NCBI GenBank assembly: GCA_020722885.1
Contig: DYJZ01000003.1
Location: 1 to 53,540 of the forward strand
DNA length: 53,540 bases
DNA from: Thermoanaerobaculum aquaticum
Lineage (GTDB): Bacteria > Acidobacteriota > UBA4820
Direction of reading: 5' to 3'
The notes below the pieces were generated by a model that saw nothing but the letters and a program-made list of their open reading frames with translations, had not been told where the DNA came from and did not search any database. Positions 6,687 through 47,552 of this stretch are shown here, piece after piece; positions within the stretch are counted from its first letter, which is position 1, and every line of letters starts with the position of its first letter. Position numbers and translations under genes: made by a program.

Positions 6687-8330
6687 ATGAATAAAGAAAA
6701 GATAATGACTTTTAGAGAAAAGCACAAAGAAAAGGTACAGAAAACACTTAAAGATAAGACTTTTTTATCTTCAACATCGGGATACGAATTTGAACCAATT
6801 TACACCCCTCTCGATATTCCTGAAGATAGCTATATGGAGGATCTTGGGTTCCCCGGAGAATTCCCCTTTACAAGAGGTGTACAGCCGACTATGTACCGGG
6901 GAAAATATTGGACTATGCGGCAGTATGCTGGATTTGGAACTGCGAAAGAATCAAACCAGAGGTACAGGTATCTTATCGAAAAAGGTCAAACGGGGTTATC
7001 TGTTGCCTTTGACCTTCCTACTCAAATGGGGCTTGATTCAGACGACCCATTGTCGCATGGCGAGGTTGGAAAGGTTGGCGTTGCAATAGACACTCTTGAT
7101 GATATGGAGATACTTTTTAAAGATATTCCCCTTGATAGAGTATCAACTTCAATGACCATAAATTCTACAGCCTTTGTTCTTCTTGCGCTTTACATCGCTG
7201 TGGCAGAAAAGAAGGGAGTCGCCTCAGAACTTCTATCGGGAACAATTCAGAACGACATCCTGAAGGAATATATTGCAAGAGGAACTTATGTTTTTCCACC
7301 AACTTCTTCTTTACGTCTGATAACGGATATATTCGAATTTGCCGGTAAGAAAACCCCAAAATTCAATACAATCTCAATATCAGGATACCATATAAGAGAA
7401 GCGGGCTCTTCTGCCGTTCAGGAAATTGCGTTCACATTTCTCAACGGAATAACCTATGTCAAAGCAGCAATTGACAAAGGGCTTGATGTTAACTCCTTCG
7501 GAGAGAGACTTTCCTTCTTTTTCAATGCTCACAATAATTTTATTGAAGAGATTGCAAAATTCAGGGCTGCAAGAAGGCTATGGGCAAAAATTATGAAAAA
7601 TAAATTCAATGCTGAAAATCCTAAAGCTCAGATGCTGCGCTTTCACACACAAACCGCAGGATGCACTCTTCTTGCACAACAGCCAGATGTCAATATAATC
7701 AGGGTAACTCTTCAGGCACTTGCTGCAGTTCTTGGAGGAACACAGTCTCTTCATACAAATTCAAGAGATGAAGCACTTGGGCTTCCTACAACAGAAAGCG
7801 CAACCCTTGCTTTAAGAACCCAGCAGGTTATAGCGTATGAAAGTGGTGTTACAGATATTATTGACCCACTTGGTGGTTCTTACGCTATTGAAGCGCTAAC
7901 AAACAAAATTGAATCAGAAGCAGAAAAACTCATTGAAGAAGTTGAAAAAATGGGAGGAATGGTCACTGCAATTGAAAAAGGATGGGTTCAAAGACAGATA
8001 GAAGACTCTTCTTACAGGTACCAGAAGGAATTAGAACAGAAAAAAAGAATAGTAGTCGGTTTGAATTCATTTACAGAAGAAAAGGAAACCCCGATACCAA
8101 TTTTGAAAATAGACCCAGCACTTGAAGAAGATCAGATAAAAAGGCTTCAGAAAGTTCGAGCGGAAAGAGATAATACAATCGTCGTAAAATGCCTGAAAAA
8201 CCTTAAAGACACCGCAATGTCAAAAGATAATATAATGCCCCCTACACTGGAGGCGGTAAAAAATTACGCAACAATAGGAGAAATCGTCAAAATTTTGAAG
8301 GAGGTTTTCGGGGTCTATAGGGCAACTTGA
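6687..8330 (+). CDS. Methylmalonyl-CoA mutase, large (catalytic) subunit without B12 domain
   Basis: The enzyme interconverts methylmalonyl-CoA and succinyl-CoA with adenosylcobalamin. The 547-residue protein is a TIM-barrel catalytic chain with [98 protein letters not shown] and [13 protein letters not shown]. It ends before any DxHxxG cobalamin-binding domain, so it belongs to the split type in which a separate small subunit (McmB/MutB-like) binds B12; that gene is not in the window. A strong GGAGG precedes the ATG. The GTG of the MFS remnant follows one base after the stop. The exact acyl-CoA specificity (methylmalonyl, ethylmalonyl or isobutyryl) cannot be read reliably, but methylmalonyl is most likely. 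Confidence 0.9.
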
Positions 8331-40416: not shown

Positions 40417-41103
40417 ATGAAAAAAAAATTTAAAGGAGTTGACAGGTACCCTCTAATAGTTTCAAAACAAAGCTTTCTTATTGTAAATGAAATTTACAAA
40501 TCAATAAATGGTGAAGGACCTCTACAGGGCTTTCCAACTGTAATTTTAAGACTTACAGGTTGCAACTTAAGATGTGGATACTGTGATACAAAATATTCTT
40601 ATTACAAAGGAGAAAGGATCTCATTCAAAAACGCTCTGAAGAAAATCACCTCCTTAAAAAGCAAAAGTGTTCTTATTACGGGGGGCGAGCCACTCTGCCA
40701 GAACTCAATTTTTGAATTTATGAAAATATTGATAGAAAAAAATTATTTGGTTTCATTAGAAACCAATGGAAGTTATCCTCTTGACGAAGTCCCGGCAAAG
40801 GTTCTGAAAATAGTTGATGTAAAAACTCCGGACAGTGGCAGTTTCGGCTCCTTTCTTGAAAAAAATATTAAATATCTTGACAAAAAAGATTGCCTGAAGT
40901 TTGTCCTTTTATCAGAAAAGGATTACAAATGGGCAAAGAATTTCATTAAAAAAAATCAAATAAAATGTCAGATTTTCTTTTCACCTGTTCACAAAAAACT
41001 TCCACTAAAGAAACTGGCTGAATGGGTAGTCAAAGACAACCTTAATGTAAAAATTTCTTTTCAACTTCACAAATATATATGGGGTAAAAGAAGAGGTGTA
41101 TGA
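40417..41103 (+). CDS. queE: 7-carboxy-7-deazaguanine synthase (radical SAM)
   Basis: QueE rearranges carboxytetrahydropterin to 7-carboxy-7-deazaguanine. The 228-residue protein shows VNEIYKSINGEGPLQGFPTVILRLTG and the radical-SAM cysteine motif CNLRCGYC (CxxxCxxC), then VLITGGEPLCQ and SLETNGS. The ATG at 40417, one base after the queD stop, is chosen because an in-frame ATG at 40354 would lie inside queD. The queC start overlaps its stop. The protein is complete. Confidence 0.93.
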   Translation: MKKKFKGVDRYPLIVSKQSFLIVNEIYKSINGEGPLQGFPTVILRLTGCNLRCGYCDTKYSYYKGERISFKNALKKITSLKSKSVLITGGEPLCQNSIFEFMKILIEKNYLVSLETNGSYPLDEVPAKVLKIVDVKTPDSGSFGSFLEKNIKYLDKKDCLKFVLLSEKDYKWAKNFIKKNQIKCQIFFSPVHKKLPLKKLAEWVVKDNLNVKISFQLHKYIWGKRRGV

Positions 41104-41864
41104 TGGAAGAGAAGCAAAAATGTGTAGTTTTATTAAGCGGTGGTATGGATTCTCTTACCACACTTGCAGTTGCCTTAGAACAGAATTTCGATCCCTATTT
41201 AATCCATCTAAACTATGGTCAGAAAACTGAGGAAGCTGAATTAAGGGCTTTCAATAAAATAGCAACTTTTTACGGAATTAAAGAAGATAAAAGGATAGTC
41301 TGTCATACAAATTTTTTCGCGCTATTAAAGGGCTCTTCGCTTATTGACAGGGAAATGGAAATTCCAAAGGGAAATCTCGATAGTGGTGTAATTCCATCCA
41401 CTTATGTTCCTTTCAGAAATGGCCTTTTGCTTTCTCTTGCAGTTTCCTATGCTGAAAAAATAATGTGCAAAACCATCTTTTTTGGTGCGGTTTCTGCCGA
41501 TTTTTCAGGATATCCCGACTGCCGGCAAGAATTTATAGACAAATTTGCCGAGTGTGCAAAAGCAGGGACAACAATAACGGATATAAGGATAATAGCACCA
41601 CTTGTTAGCTTAAAAAAATCTCAGATCCTTACCCTTGCAACCCGCCTTGGTGCTCCTCTTCATTATACCTGGTCCTGTTATAAGAGAAACGATCTTGCAT
41701 GTGGGGAATGCGACTCCTGCCTTCTGAGATTAAGGGCTTTTGAGGAGATTGGAAGTTCTGACCCCATCCAGTACGCCAAATTTTCAAAAGACAGAGAACC
41801 TTCAAAGATTGACAAACTTGTTCGCCTGAAAAGACTTCTGAGTGCTTTAACTGCAAAAACATAG
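41100..41864 (+). CDS. queC: 7-cyano-7-deazaguanine (preQ0) synthase
   Basis: QueC converts carboxydeazaguanine to the nitrile preQ0 with ATP and ammonia. The 254-residue PP-loop protein has VVLLSGGMDSLTTLA, IHLNYGQKTEEAELRAF, STYVPFRNGLLLSLA and YPDCRQEFI. The zinc-binding Cys cluster is SCYKRNDLACGECDSCLLR. It overlaps queE by four bases. QueF, QueA and Tgt are not in the window, so whether preQ0 goes to queuosine in tRNA or to deazaguanine in DNA is open; no DNA-modification (dpd) genes are nearby. Confidence 0.95.
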   Translation: MMEEKQKCVVLLSGGMDSLTTLAVALEQNFDPYLIHLNYGQKTEEAELRAFNKIATFYGIKEDKRIVCHTNFFALLKGSSLIDREMEIPKGNLDSGVIPSTYVPFRNGLLLSLAVSYAEKIMCKTIFFGAVSADFSGYPDCRQEFIDKFAECAKAGTTITDIRIIAPLVSLKKSQILTLATRLGAPLHYTWSCYKRNDLACGECDSCLLRLRAFEEIGSSDPIQYAKFSKDREPSKIDKLVRLKRLLSALTAKT

Positions 41865-41927: not shown

Positions 41928-42857
41928 ATGCACAGAAGAAAGGTTTCTGTCATAGGGGCTGGAAATGTAGGAGCGACCACCGCTTTAAGAATAATTGAAG
42001 GTAAGCTCGCAGATGTGGTGCTGGTAGATATAGCAGAAAGACTGGCAAAAGGTAAAGCGCTCGATATTTTACAATCCTGTCCAATACTCGGTAGTGACTG
42101 TTCCATTAAAGGAACAAGCGACTACTCTGAAACAGAAGGGAGTGAAATAGTTGTTATGACCGCAGGCATTGCAATAAGGCCTGAAATGAAGGCGGAAGAC
42201 CTTTTGCAAACCAATTTTCAGGTTGTCAAAAACTGCCTCGAATCGTGGAATAAGTACTGTCCTGAAGCAATAATTATAATGGTTACAGATCCTCTTGATT
42301 TAATGTCTTATGCAGCATACAGGTTTTCCGGGCAGGACAAAAGAAAAATTCTCGGAATGTCGGGTGTTGTTGAGACAGCAAGAATAAAAACTTTGATAGC
42401 AGAAAAAATAAAAGTTTCTTCTGGAGATATAAAGGCTCTTGTCATTGGAGGAAGGGGAGAATATATGATTCCTCTTTTAAGACTTGCAACTGTCAATGGT
42501 GTCCCTCTTGAAAAGCTTTTGAATCAAAAAGAGATTCAAGAAATTGTCTCTTTAGCAAAAAGAAGTGAAACAGAGATCATTCAGCTTCTTCAGGCAGGAA
42601 GCGCATTTTACGCTCCTGCAGCAGCCATTTTTGAAATTGTTGAATCAATACTTCTCGATAAAAAAAAGATACTCCCCTGTTCTGTTTATTTAGATGGAGA
42701 ATACAATCAGAAAAATGTTTTTTTATGTGCTCCGGCAAAGCTTGGTAGTTCGGGTGTTGAAGAGATAATAAATATTCCGCTTACAAGAGAAGAGCAAGTT
42801 GCTTTTGATAAAGCGGCATCCTATTTTAATCAATTGAAAAGCATTGTAAATCTTTAA
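41928..42857 (+). CDS. Malate/lactate dehydrogenase-fold protein with lost catalytic residues
   Basis: This is a 309-residue protein alignable along its whole length with LDH-like malate dehydrogenases. The NAD-binding VIGAGNVGATTA and VVLVDI are intact, as are SAFYAPAAAIFEIVESIL and GSSGVEEI. The catalytic set is not. The mobile loop usually reading (P)RKPGM.R reads AIRPEMKAEDLL, with Ile83 and Ala89 in place of the two arginines. VTNP is VTDP (Asp121). The relay Asp is Glu149. The catalytic His of GGHGD is Arg176 in GGRGEYMIP. Only Arg152 of the substrate site remains. It is probably an NAD(H)-binding pseudoenzyme or an enzyme with new chemistry. It precedes the fumarase genes by 24 bases, where a normal mdh would be expected, and has a GGGAGAAAA site. 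Confidence 0.85.
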   Translation: MHRRKVSVIGAGNVGATTALRIIEGKLADVVLVDIAERLAKGKALDILQSCPILGSDCSIKGTSDYSETEGSEIVVMTAGIAIRPEMKAEDLLQTNFQVVKNCLESWNKYCPEAIIIMVTDPLDLMSYAAYRFSGQDKRKILGMSGVVETARIKTLIAEKIKVSSGDIKALVIGGRGEYMIPLLRLATVNGVPLEKLLNQKEIQEIVSLAKRSETEIIQLLQAGSAFYAPAAAIFEIVESILLDKKKILPCSVYLDGEYNQKNVFLCAPAKLGSSGVEEIINIPLTREEQVAFDKAASYFNQLKSIVNL

Positions 42858-42881
42858 AACATTAAATTAAAGGAGGTGGAA

Positions 42882-43721
42882 ATGAGAACAATTAACAGCA
42901 AGGAGATAACAGAAGCAGTTATTAGGTTAGCCATTCAAAAGGCTTATGAGATAGGAGATGATATTTTAAAAGGTTTTGATTGGGCTCTTACAAATGAAAA
43001 ATCTGAAACAGGAAGAGAGATCCTTCAGCAGTTGAAAGAAAACGCCAAAATTGCTGCAGAAGGGGTGGTTCCATACTGTCAGGATACCGGAATGGCGGTT
43101 CTTTTCGTCGAAGTGGGACAGGATTTAAGAATCGAGGGAGACCTTGAAGAAGCACTTAATGAAGGAATAAGAAGAGCTTATGTAGATGGTTTTTTAAGAA
43201 AATCGGTTTATAAAGACCCAATTAGAAGAGTAAATACAGGTGATAATACTCCCGCTATAATACATTATTCGATAGTAAAAGGTGACCAATTAAAAATCAC
43301 CTTCGGGGCAAAAGGCGGAGGCAGTGAGAATATGTCTCGTCTTAGTATGCTCAAGCCAAGTGATGGAATAGAGGGAGTAAAAAATTTTGTCATTGAAACA
43401 GTTTCTATTGGTGGAGCAAACGCCTGTCCGCCGCTTGTTGTTGGCGTTGGGATTGGAGGAAATTTTGAGAAATGTGCCATCCTGGCAAAGAAGGCTGCCC
43501 TGAGGTCTTTTCAAGTAAGAAATCAAGACCCTTTCTATGCGGAAATAGAAGAAGAGTTGAAAGAAAAGTGCAACGCTCTTGGAGTAGGGCCTATGGGACT
43601 TGGTGGAACTGTTACTGTTCTGGGAGTAAACATTGAGGTTTTCCCGTGCCATCTTGTTGCTCTTCCTGTTGCTGTAAATATTAACTGTCATGCCGCAAGA
43701 CACGGCGAAATAATTCTTTAG
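42882..43721 (+). CDS. Class I fumarate hydratase, alpha subunit (Fe-S)
   Basis: This is the N-terminal catalytic half of the two-subunit, oxygen-sensitive [4Fe-4S] fumarase; the tartrate dehydratase alpha subunit is the close relative. The 279-residue protein has the cluster cysteines in VVPYCQDTGMAVLF, GGANACPPLVVGVGIGG and VNINCHAARHGE, plus TGDNTPAIIHYSIV and FGAKGGGSENMS. The ATG at 42882 follows AAAGGAGGTGGAA, decisive over the in-frame GTG at 42876. The beta subunit follows after nine bases. Fumarate/malate interconversion is the likely activity. Confidence 0.92.
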   Translation: MRTINSKEITEAVIRLAIQKAYEIGDDILKGFDWALTNEKSETGREILQQLKENAKIAAEGVVPYCQDTGMAVLFVEVGQDLRIEGDLEEALNEGIRRAYVDGFLRKSVYKDPIRRVNTGDNTPAIIHYSIVKGDQLKITFGAKGGGSENMSRLSMLKPSDGIEGVKNFVIETVSIGGANACPPLVVGVGIGGNFEKCAILAKKAALRSFQVRNQDPFYAEIEEELKEKCNALGVGPMGLGGTVTVLGVNIEVFPCHLVALPVAVNINCHAARHGEIIL

Positions 43722-43730
43722 GAGGAAAAA

Positions 43731-44288
43731 ATGGCAGAATACAGATTGATAGCACCACTTAAAGACGATGATGTAGTTAAACTCAAAATAGGAGATAAAG
43801 TATTGCTCAGTGGAATTGTATATACTGCAAGAGATGCTGCCCACAAAAGACTTATTGAACTTTTAGACAAAAACGAAAATCCCCCATTTGAAATAAAGGG
43901 CTCTGTTATTTACTATGTTGGACCAACACCACCCCGTCCCGGAAAGGTAATTGGCGCAGCGGGGCCTACAACAGCAGTCAGGATGGATGCTTATGCTCCC
44001 CGCCTTATGAAAGAGGGAATGAAGGGAATGATAGCAAAGGGAAAGAGGAACGATTCTGTTAAAAAAGCAATGATGGAATACAGGGTTGTCTATTTTGGCG
44101 CAACAGGAGGAGCTGGGGCGCTAATAAACAGGTGCATTAAAAAAGCAGAGGTTGTCGCTTTTGAAGATCTTGGACCTGAAGCGATCAGGAAACTCGAAAT
44201 TGAAGACTTTCCTTTAATTGTTGTAGGTGACTCTTTTGGAGGAGACCTCTACATTGGAGGAAGAATGAAATGGGAGAAAAAGGAATAG
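43731..44288 (+). CDS. Class I fumarate hydratase, beta subunit
   Basis: This is a 185-residue swivelling C-terminal domain of split class I fumarase. The signatures are IGDKVLLSGIVYTARDAAHKR, IYYVGPTPPRPGKVIGAAGPTT, RMDAYAPRLMKEGMKGMIAKG and YFGATGGAGALINRCIKKAE. It is nine bases after the alpha subunit with GGAGGAAAAA before the ATG. The 3' end overlaps the DUF4388 gene by 19 bases. Together with the alpha subunit it forms the complete enzyme. Confidence 0.93.
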   Translation: MAEYRLIAPLKDDDVVKLKIGDKVLLSGIVYTARDAAHKRLIELLDKNENPPFEIKGSVIYYVGPTPPRPGKVIGAAGPTTAVRMDAYAPRLMKEGMKGMIAKGKRNDSVKKAMMEYRVVYFGATGGAGALINRCIKKAEVVAFEDLGPEAIRKLEIEDFPLIVVGDSFGGDLYIGGRMKWEKKE

Positions 44289-45847
44289 AAAAAATTCCAT
44301 TCCCTCCAACAAAAGACGACCTGAGAGAAATTTCAAAATTAAAAGAGGGAAGCCTTGACTCAATCCCCTTCCCATTTATTCTTTTCTCTCATTTTATCGA
44401 AGAGAGAACTTTAACGCTCGAAGTAACCAAAGGACGAATACTGAAGAAAGTTTTGATAGAATTTGGGACTCCGGTTGATTGTCAGTCAAATCTTGCCCAC
44501 GAAACCTTTGGAAGGTTCCTTTCTCAATTAGGAAAGTTTTCTGACGAAGAGGCAAACCTTTATTTTTCAGAATCAATTTCTAAAGGCATTCCTTTTGGAG
44601 AACATCTGGTTTCTAAGGGAATACTCAACCACTCTGAACTCTACAGATATCTTCAACAAAACCTTGCAAAAAAACTTCTTGATCTATTTCTTATAAAAGG
44701 TGGACAATTTAAACTCTCCTTCAACAATTTTGAAAACAGATCATCTCTCAAAGTTAATGTCCCCCAACTCATTTTCACTGGAATTACCAAATTCGCATTA
44801 ATCAATGAGGTTAACAAATTTCTTGCCCCCTTAATAGGAAAAGTTCTTGCGCTTTCTGTTGAAAGCCACTTTGACACCAATGAAATCAAATTAACAAAAA
44901 GTGCACAGGCTGTGGTAAAATCGCTTGAAAAACCAAAAAGGCTTGACGAAATTGTTTCTGAACTTTCGATTCCTTATGAAGATTTCTCGAGAATTCTGTA
45001 TGCGCTATGCCTGATTGGAATGATAGTTCCAGAGGAAAGAAACAAGGGAAAATCCGTAAAGAAAACAGAGCAAAAGATAGAAGACAACAAAAAAGAAGTT
45101 ATTTGTAATTCATCATTGACTGATGAACAGGTTCGAAAAATTAAAGAAAACCTTCACAAAGAGTATCTATCTTTCAGAGGAAAGGATGCTTTTGACCTTC
45201 TTTCTCTTCCAGAAACTGCAACGATATTACAAATAAAGGAAGCCTATCTTAATTTTGCTTCCAGATTCAATCCTGACAATTTCAAAGCAAATGAAATTTC
45301 TGATCTTAAGGAAAAGGCTATTGAACTTTTTCTTGCAGGGGCAAAGGCGTACGCCATTCTTTCTGATGGGGAATTAAAAGAAAAACTGAAAAAAGAGAGA
45401 ATTCTTAAAAGACAGAAAGCCTTTAGTGCTTCAACTCCTGAGCAAAAAGACCCCTATAAAGAACTTCTTGATGCAAAAACGCAGTTCAAAACTGCAAAGG
45501 CTCTTCGTCATCAAGGAAAACATAAAGAAGCACTGAATTATTTTGAATATGCTCTTGAACTTGACCCTCAAAACTCTGAATATGGGGCTGAATTAGCCCT
45601 TCAAAGGTTTCTTCATAGTGAACTATTTGCTGACAGATCTTTAAAAGAACTTGCCGGGATTTTAAAAAGAGAGCAGAACTGTTTCGTCGCCTATATAAAC
45701 ACCGCCTTTATCCTTGCAAAAAGAAACAATCTCGAATCTGCAAAGGCGAACCTTGCAAAGGCAGAAAAACTTATACCTAATGATCCCAGAATTGTAGAAG
45801 TTAAAGAGATTATTTCAGCCATGCAAAAATCCTTCCTGAAAAGATAG
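44270..45847 (+). CDS. DUF4388 - degenerate J-domain - TPR protein
   Basis: The 525-residue cytosolic protein has several modules. Residues about 25-170 resemble DUF4388 (effector-like domain with EGSLDSIPFPFILFSHF, LEVTKGRILKKVLIEFGTPV and LHxAL-like helices). A winged-helix-like stretch follows (about 205-260). A J-like domain (about 303-365) reads DAFDLLSLPETATILQIKEAYLNFASRF with NPD (about 334-336) instead of HPD, so it should not stimulate an Hsp70. TPR-like helices come last (about 390-525: AKALRHQGKHKEALNYFEYALELDP). Such proteins occur in Acidobacteriota- and Deltaproteobacteria-like genomes, often near signalling or gliding genes. It overlaps fumarase beta by 19 bases. Confidence 0.75.
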   Translation: MGEKGIEKIPFPPTKDDLREISKLKEGSLDSIPFPFILFSHFIEERTLTLEVTKGRILKKVLIEFGTPVDCQSNLAHETFGRFLSQLGKFSDEEANLYFSESISKGIPFGEHLVSKGILNHSELYRYLQQNLAKKLLDLFLIKGGQFKLSFNNFENRSSLKVNVPQLIFTGITKFALINEVNKFLAPLIGKVLALSVESHFDTNEIKLTKSAQAVVKSLEKPKRLDEIVSELSIPYEDFSRILYALCLIGMIVPEERNKGKSVKKTEQKIEDNKKEVICNSSLTDEQVRKIKENLHKEYLSFRGKDAFDLLSLPETATILQIKEAYLNFASRFNPDNFKANEISDLKEKAIELFLAGAKAYAILSDGELKEKLKKERILKRQKAFSASTPEQKDPYKELLDAKTQFKTAKALRHQGKHKEALNYFEYALELDPQNSEYGAELALQRFLHSELFADRSLKELAGILKREQNCFVAYINTAFILAKRNNLESAKANLAKAEKLIPNDPRIVEVKEIISAMQKSFLKR

Positions 45848-45878
45848 TTATCTGATAAAATAGCTCTGGAGGTTATTT

Positions 45879-46538
45879 TTGAAACTATTTGCAGTAGTAA
45901 GCGAGCAAGAAAAAAATAATTGGTGCAAACCAGGACATCCATTTAATAGGTCTGACATTAAGATAGTCTATTTTTTGGGAGGATACGATCTTAAAGAACG
46001 ACTTTTGAAATCTGGACTCCCTGACATTCTCATTGTAGAAGATTCCCTTCTTTTTCAAAAGCCGGAGGAATTTTTGTGGGATTTGAGAGAAATTAAATCG
46101 TGGGAAAAAGTTCAAACCGTTTTAATATATGCAAAATCAGAAACTTACTCAGGAGCAAAACAGCCCAATACCCATTACTTTACAATGCCAGTAAGCCCGG
46201 CACAGTATGAAGAAGTTATCAAGTCAATCGGTAAGGTCGTTTCAAGAAGATATCCTCGAAAGGAAATAAACGCACCATGTAAATTAGTTTATTTTGCAAA
46301 ATCAATTGATTGCACAATCAGGGATCTGTCCTTAAGCGGATGCAGAATAGATTACGATGGAGAACTAAAAACTGGAACTGTTGTCCAACTTGCATTTGGA
46401 ATAAATTTGGGAACAAAAAGATTTGTTATAAAAACCACAGCGAAAATAGTAAGGTCTGTCAAAAATGAATATGGGTTAAACTTTTTGTCAATGGAAAGTA
46501 ATGATAGAAACCTTTTAAGCTCTTTTATAAGAGGTTAA
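45879..46538 (+). CDS. PilZ-domain protein with receiver-like N-terminus
   Basis: This is a 219-residue protein with a TTG start behind CTGGAGG. The N-terminal part (1-120) resembles a receiver-like fold with ILIVEDS and a late MPVSPAQYEEVIKSIGKV in the position of a response regulator's KP segment, but no clear phospho-Asp. The C-terminal PilZ domain (about 126-218) has the c-di-GMP motif RRYPRKEINAPCKLVY and DLSLSGCRIDY, then a YGLNFLSM ending. It is therefore expected to bind cyclic di-GMP. It lies between the DUF4388 and squalene-synthase-type genes on the same strand, which supports a signalling role for its neighbour. Confidence 0.82.
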   Translation: MKLFAVVSEQEKNNWCKPGHPFNRSDIKIVYFLGGYDLKERLLKSGLPDILIVEDSLLFQKPEEFLWDLREIKSWEKVQTVLIYAKSETYSGAKQPNTHYFTMPVSPAQYEEVIKSIGKVVSRRYPRKEINAPCKLVYFAKSIDCTIRDLSLSGCRIDYDGELKTGTVVQLAFGINLGTKRFVIKTTAKIVRSVKNEYGLNFLSMESNDRNLLSSFIRG

Positions 46539-46541
46539 ACT

Positions 46542-47552
46542 TTGCCTAAAGACGATATCAAGTTTTGCCACGACTTCCTTCCCAAAGTTTCAAGGACATT
46601 TGCTCTTTCAATTTCTCAACTCAAAGAACCATTGAGAAGTGAAATCTGCGTAACATACCTTATTTGCAGAATCCTCGATACCATTGAGGACTCCCCTTCC
46701 CTTCCGTTTAAAAGAAAAGAAAACTCAATAAACTTTTTTCTTGATTGTTTGGTAAATCAAAAAATAAACACCAATGCTTTTGAAGAAATTTACAGTGAAC
46801 TAAAGGAACAATCTTCGCCTTATGACGCTGAACTTGTGAAAAATGGAGATAAAATTAGGCGCTCTTTTCTCTCTTCAAGGAAAGAGTCCCAGGAAGCGAT
46901 ACACCCCTGGGTGGTTGAAATGGGAAAGGGTATGCTCCTTTACAACAAAAAGATGGAAGAGAAAAATGGGCTCAAAGAGATAAAGACTTTAGAAGATCTT
47001 GATAATTACTGCTACTACATAGCAGGAACAGTTGGTTATATGCTGACAAACCTTTTTTCTCTTAATTGCCCTGAAATTGATAAAAATAAATACAATTATC
47101 TTAAAGAAAGGGCTAACGATTTTGGCCTTGCACTTCAGAAAGTAAATATTTTAAAAGATATTAGGGAAGATTATATAAGAGGGTGGGTTTTTATTCCGCA
47201 GAAAATTCTTATTCAAGCAAAGATGGAGCCTTCTAACCTTCTTGATGAAAACTACAGCATCATTTTGTACAATTCCCTCTTTCCTCTTTTTGAAACATTA
47301 AAGAAAAATCTACAAAGTGCATTTGAATATTTAATAGCAATTCCTGAAAATGAAAAAGAGGTTCGTCTCTTTCTATCAACAAGTCTTTTTTTTGCTCGAG
47401 AGACGGTAAATCTCATCCAGAAAAAGAAAAAAAATTTTCTTTCTCAAGAAAAACTTAAAATATCCCGTCTTCAAGTTTCAAAAATCCTTGCAGCTCTTCA
47501 AAGCAAATGCAACTCAAACTTAAAACTCGAAAAGATGTGGAAAAGAAATTGA
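46542..47552 (+). CDS. Squalene/phytoene synthase family protein (squalene-synthase-like)
   Basis: The 336-residue head-to-head prenyl synthase (TTG start, three bases after the PilZ gene) has both aspartate-rich motifs: RILDTIEDS and LKDIREDY. It also has FCHDFLPKVSRTFALSI near the N-terminus and YCYYIAGTVGYMLTNLF, GLALQKVNILKDI and RGWVFIPQ. The LDTIED form and YIAGTVG resemble squalene synthase (FPP to squalene) more than phytoene synthase. No hopanoid or carotenoid gene is adjacent, so the end product is open. There is no obvious C-terminal membrane anchor. Confidence 0.85.
   Translation: MPKDDIKFCHDFLPKVSRTFALSISQLKEPLRSEICVTYLICRILDTIEDSPSLPFKRKENSINFFLDCLVNQKINTNAFEEIYSELKEQSSPYDAELVKNGDKIRRSFLSSRKESQEAIHPWVVEMGKGMLLYNKKMEEKNGLKEIKTLEDLDNYCYYIAGTVGYMLTNLFSLNCPEIDKNKYNYLKERANDFGLALQKVNILKDIREDYIRGWVFIPQKILIQAKMEPSNLLDENYSIILYNSLFPLFETLKKNLQSAFEYLIAIPENEKEVRLFLSTSLFFARETVNLIQKKKKNFLSQEKLKISRLQVSKILAALQSKCNSNLKLEKMWKRN

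Follow-up and report, generated by a model that had tools for sequence, protein, structure and literature searches.

The malate dehydrogenase (MDH) position directly before fumarase is occupied, in the 53,540-nucleotide stretch of DNA analyzed here (the window), by an intact gene whose product has the MDH fold but has lost most of the catalytic residues of the family. Judged from its sequence, the protein is probably a maintained pseudoenzyme, non-catalytic and structural or regulatory in role, which probably still binds NAD(H). It appears that an enzyme of core metabolism has become something different. The altered form is present in two species of one genus, both uncultured Acidobacteriota: the window genome (G000, a MAG, 91% complete) and G001 (JAAZNT010000192, a Thermoanaerobaculaceae MAG from a separate assembly, 88% complete). 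They were compared with a third congener that has a canonical MDH (G002), other species of the order (G008 and G010), a genome of the sister genus (G003, 95% complete) and genomes of family f2 (G006 and G007). The gene and its neighbors in the window are as follows.

41100-41864, + strand: queC, the upstream syntenic marker of the mdh slot.
41928-42857, + strand: MDH-fold pseudoenzyme, 309 aa, with the ATG at 41928 and the stop codon ending at 42857.
42876-43721, + strand: fumarase alpha subunit, class I two-subunit type; the likely start is the ATG at 42882, ∼24 nt after the stop of the pseudoenzyme gene.
43731-44288, + strand: fumarase beta subunit.

The coordinates, frame and start assigned in the original prediction were right, and the ribosome binding site it described is a GGGAG ∼8 nt upstream of the ATG. 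Its assignment of the product to the LDH-like MDHs over the full length also held: both Pfam domains, Ldh_1_N and Ldh_1_C, are present at full length (110 and 88.7 bits, both above the cut-off), and the nearest solved folds to the predicted structure are malate dehydrogenases (TM 0.97), with which the protein shares 44%–46% sequence identity. The mean pLDDT of the AlphaFold models is 95.1 for the window protein and 93.9 for the G001 protein. With LDH-like bacterial MDH (PRK06223/TIGR01763, EC 1.1.1.37) the protein thus has in common full-length homology, the Rossmann NAD domain, the predicted fold and the synteny with fumarase; it differs in that five of the six catalytic or substrate residues are replaced and in that it narrowly misses the cut-off of TIGR01763, the bacterial MDH equivalog (345.3 versus 351.85 bits). 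Because it passes the cut-off of the NCBIfam MDH subfamily PRK06223 (369.7 versus 283 bits), automatic annotation would name it malate dehydrogenase, and the organism would be assigned a TCA step that is probably missing.

The residues of interest were assigned by aligning the window protein with 111 canonical homologues; LDH numbering is used for the residues replaced.

41955-41972, + strand: NAD-binding loop, G10-A-G12-N-V-G15, intact.
42174-42176, + strand: codon 83, Ile, in place of the specificity Arg102; Leu in G001.
42192-42194, + strand: codon 89, Ala, in place of Arg109; Pro in G001.
42288-42290, + strand: codon 121, Asp, in place of Asn140; Asp in G001.
42372-42374, + strand: codon 149, Glu, in place of the relay Asp168; G001 keeps Asp.
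42381-42383, + strand: codon 152, Arg171, kept in both proteins.
42453-42455, + strand: codon 176, Arg, in place of the catalytic His195; Arg in G001.
42567-42569, + strand: codon 214, Glu, in place of the first-shell Gly237; Glu in G001.

Each of the residues named beforehand (I83, A89, D121, E149, R152 and R176) proved correct, as did the retention of the NAD-binding loop, to which Asp34 can be added; the loop glycines and D34 are unaltered in G001 as well. At the six catalytic positions the window protein reads I A D E R R and the G001 protein L P D D R R. The canonical G002, G008 and G010 proteins read R R N D R H, and so do all the other homologues recovered with tblastn from the loci fetched, which came mostly from Acidobacteriota, Desulfobacterota and Nitrospirota. 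The original prediction had proposed a check for the same substitutions next to fumarase in related genomes, and they recur in G001, where N121D, H176R and the loss of both loop arginines occur in the same slot. Since that assembly is separate from G000, chance or assembly error is excluded as their source.

Boucher et al., 2014 (PMC4109310) list 16 first-shell residues for MDH; nine of these are altered in the window protein and eight in G001, compared with none in G002, G008 and G010. Near-invariant columns, defined as at least 95% invariant among canonical homologues (n = 80), are altered at 24 positions in the window protein, 22 in G001, 17 in both and four in G002. The columns altered in both species fall preferentially in the first shell (7/14 versus 10/66, p = 0.008); catalytic segments picked by the analyst gave p = 3e-5, and the literature-defined first shell was relied on instead. 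At 12 of the 17 shared columns the new residue is the same in the two species (D121, V148, L156, I173, R176, E178, I181, A210, E214, I218, A296 and F300), which indicates that the altered site is itself conserved. The new residues differ at the remaining five (83, 84, 88, 89 and 209), of which four lie in the mobile loop. From this distribution it follows that the floor of the pocket was rebuilt and then held, whereas the loop that delivers the arginines drifted, a pattern that suggests a pocket no longer closing on substrate.

The substrate site would have been dismantled in the common ancestor of the two species, through the loss of the loop arginines, the exchanges Asn to Asp and His to Arg and the gain of an acidic residue at Gly237, with the dinucleotide half and the overall fold kept. 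Hydride transfer on malate or oxaloacetate is most likely gone; on the LDH/MDH mechanism, the joint loss of His195, Arg109 and Arg102 should abolish ordinary hydride transfer on oxaloacetate. The pocket is probably filled by a network of salt bridges from D121, D/E149 and E214 to R152 and R176.

The altered gene arose from the MDH already in place. The window and G001 proteins are 69% identical to each other, and the canonical MDH of G002 is 55%–56% identical to both. In the family tree, which the original prediction had called for, the two pseudoenzymes group with the canonical proteins of G002, G008 and G010 (SH-aLRT 100), and synteny is kept, ruling out horizontal replacement by a foreign homologue; the gene is an in-place, direct descendant of the family's ordinary malate dehydrogenase. 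When 396 genomes of the phylum were scanned with a spaced DNA pattern for the Arg176 form (Asn or Asp at position 121), two matched, G000 and G001; the pattern would miss forms with a residue other than Arg at 176 or with shifted spacing. Among the fetched loci, the analogous canonical pattern matched 115 of 134 and the Arg176 pattern the two species only.

Evolutionary rates separate the origin of the altered form from its later history. On a fixed five-species tree, the stem branch leading to the two pseudoenzymes has a length of 0.39 for MDH versus 0.019 for fumarase, ∼20 times faster. The two terminal branches are 0.24 and 0.20 for MDH versus 0.09 and 0.07 for fumarase, about 2.5–3 times faster, and the branch of the canonical congener G002 is 0.10 versus 0.14, or 0.7 times. 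In a codon model of three species, joint neutrality of both terminal branches was rejected (2ΔlnL = 209). The branch ω values of 0.03–0.07 resemble those of the neighboring queC and queE; fixing the window branch alone at ω = 1 gave a 2ΔlnL of only 4.0, a weak rejection, and because synonymous sites are saturated the exact value for each branch is unreliable. An initial burst along the stem and the constraint that came after it agree with a change of function rather than with decay. The dN/dS comparison therefore bears out the claim that the gene is maintained. It also bears on two linked possibilities raised with the original prediction, that orthologues would carry the normal His and Arg residues and that this copy would be a lone decaying allele. 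Such orthologues do exist, in G002, G008 and G010, but the copy is not a lone decaying allele, because two species have the altered form and purifying selection on it is strong.

A more general form of decay, with the gene of both species on its way to the loss completed in G003, is barely credible. The family can do without MDH, since G003 has no gene in the same slot, and the terminal branches do run faster than those of fumarase. Nevertheless, the frame has stayed intact in two species at their present divergence, the neutrality test and the ω values argue for constraint, and the new residue is identical at 12 of the 17 invariant columns altered in both.

The burst and the constraint that followed it would fit a neofunctionalized enzyme, in which R176 and D/E149 serve as acid or base, R152 grips a carboxylate and another substrate is turned over with NAD(H). 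We regard this as unlikely, although several features speak for it. Arginine is capable of general acid–base catalysis in other enzymes, and R176 adjoins D/E149, making new chemistry possible. The two species conserve the changed pocket (D121, R152, R176, E178 and E214 are identical) along with an intact NAD loop. At position 102, the hydrophobic I/L recalls specificity shifts toward non-dicarboxylates, and an altered residue 102, neither Arg nor Gln, was noted by Boucher et al. in the L-2-hydroxyisocaproate (HicDH) clade (PMC4109310). However, the HicDH and other known altered-specificity clades retain Arg109, Asp168, Arg171 and His195 (PMC4109310), a set that the window protein does not keep, Arg109 and His195 being gone. 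The loop positions, moreover, vary between the two species (I/L, A/P, R/H and K/T), which suggests no specific contact with a substrate. A maintained, non-catalytic protein remains the preferred reading.

The pathway content of G000 was checked family by family. The second, canonical mdh that the original prediction had proposed to look for was not found: G000 has no second Ldh_1 or Ldh_1_C protein and G001 no Ldh_1_C protein beyond its own copy, although both are incomplete MAGs (91% and 88%), in which a canonical mdh could have been missed. Neither Mqo nor Ldh_2, either of which might have compensated, was found in any of the seven genomes searched, G000 included. PYC_OADA and PEPCK_GTP were likewise absent from the seven.

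Malate can exit through malic enzyme, bypassing MDH, and a route from methylmalonyl-CoA through succinate, fumarate and malate to pyruvate without MDH is a reasonable inference. The malic enzyme of G000 is an NADP-type protein of 426 aa, encoded near methylmalonyl-CoA epimerase and MeaB (L122:1012-2292). That of G001 belongs to a different subfamily (493 aa, L121:2-1483) and has the same downstream genes, as if one malic enzyme had been swapped for the other between the two species. The relatives examined, G002 among them, have a long malic enzyme of ∼580 aa that was not found in G000 or G001.

A citrate synthase of the PRK09569 type, which resembles the eukaryotic form, is encoded in G000 (C71:13208-14287) and in G001 (C173); none was found in the canonical congener G002 or in G003. 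The need of this enzyme for oxaloacetate might be taken to mean that the window protein, which occupies the mdh slot and keeps R152, is still a slow or unusual malate dehydrogenase. This is very improbable given the combined loss of His195, Arg109 and Arg102, as changes at R102 alone strongly cut the oxaloacetate activity of engineered MDHs (PMC4109310). In addition, oxaloacetate may come from a PEPCK-like protein of 577 aa in the same genome (C51, L143:451-2184), which scores 277 bits against PRK09344 (cut-off 369) and 87 bits against PEPCK_ATP. Weak PEPCK matches of a similar kind occur in all seven genomes searched and possibly represent a divergent PEPCK subfamily.

Pseudoenzymes often originate from a spare copy. 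With no second copy found, an ordinary single-copy enzyme of a core pathway here seems to have been repurposed in place. We suggest, tentatively, that the sole MDH may have been converted within its own operon, with no sign of a duplication in the genomes searched, and that it became either a dedicated NAD(H)-sensing regulator or an enzyme of arginine-based chemistry not known in the LDH/MDH superfamily. In the papers searched, no pseudoenzyme was found to stand in for the sole MDH of a bacterial central-metabolism operon, and nothing bore directly on MDH pseudoenzymes. Parallels can nonetheless be drawn. Work on pseudoenzymes in general describes loss of the catalytic motif from a conserved, selected protein (PMC5106787, PMC10211241), as is seen here. 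According to PMC8564385, citing Schreier 2018, a catalytically dead plastidial NAD-MDH rescues its mutant via a non-enzymatic role. That protein, found in the FtsH12-FtsHi complex, is alike in that the role of an MDH protein outlasts the loss of activity; it is unlike in that the dead variant is experimental and the natural plant enzyme active, and it comes from another organism and another branch of MDHs.

The position of the gene before fumarase is inherited. The block queE-queC-mdh-fumA-fumB is common to G000, G001 and G002, in keeping with the placement first described, and mdh also stands before fumarase in G008, G010, G006 and G007; the order is ancestral and was already present with a canonical mdh. 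G003 has the same block without mdh, fumarase starting at 7337 of L149 after the end of queC at 7259, and no MDH homologue was found elsewhere in this 95% complete genome. Fumarase in this family needs no MDH-like neighbor. These two observations, an ancestral order and a fumarase block free of MDH, mean that adjacency is no independent evidence of partnership, and the suggestion drawn from placement, that the protein partners fumarase, is not supported. In favor of a stabilizing or regulatory subunit of the adjoining two-subunit fumarase are the shared strand and the ∼24 nt to the alpha start, an arrangement kept in both species. Such a role is nevertheless improbable, given that the arrangement is ancestral to catalytic mdh in the order and that the fumarase pair of G003 occurs in a genome where no MDH-like protein was found. 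One slot in one family is thus found in three states: catalytic (G002), dismantled but selected (G000 and G001) and absent (G003). The slot offers, in compact form, a natural experiment on how a central enzyme comes to be dispensable and on what its protein can do from then on.

In family f2, exemplified by G006 and G007, a different canonical MDH, ∼35% identical, precedes the same fumarase genes (L127:1447-2463; L129, − strand) and carries extra residues in the specificity loop (PRKARPDGTFPSREE); there another MDH seems to have filled the mdh slot anew. After fumarase, positions 44270-47552 of the window encode a DUF4388-DnaJ-TPR protein, a PilZ protein and a squalene/phytoene synthase-like protein, a block that is also present in G001 and G003.
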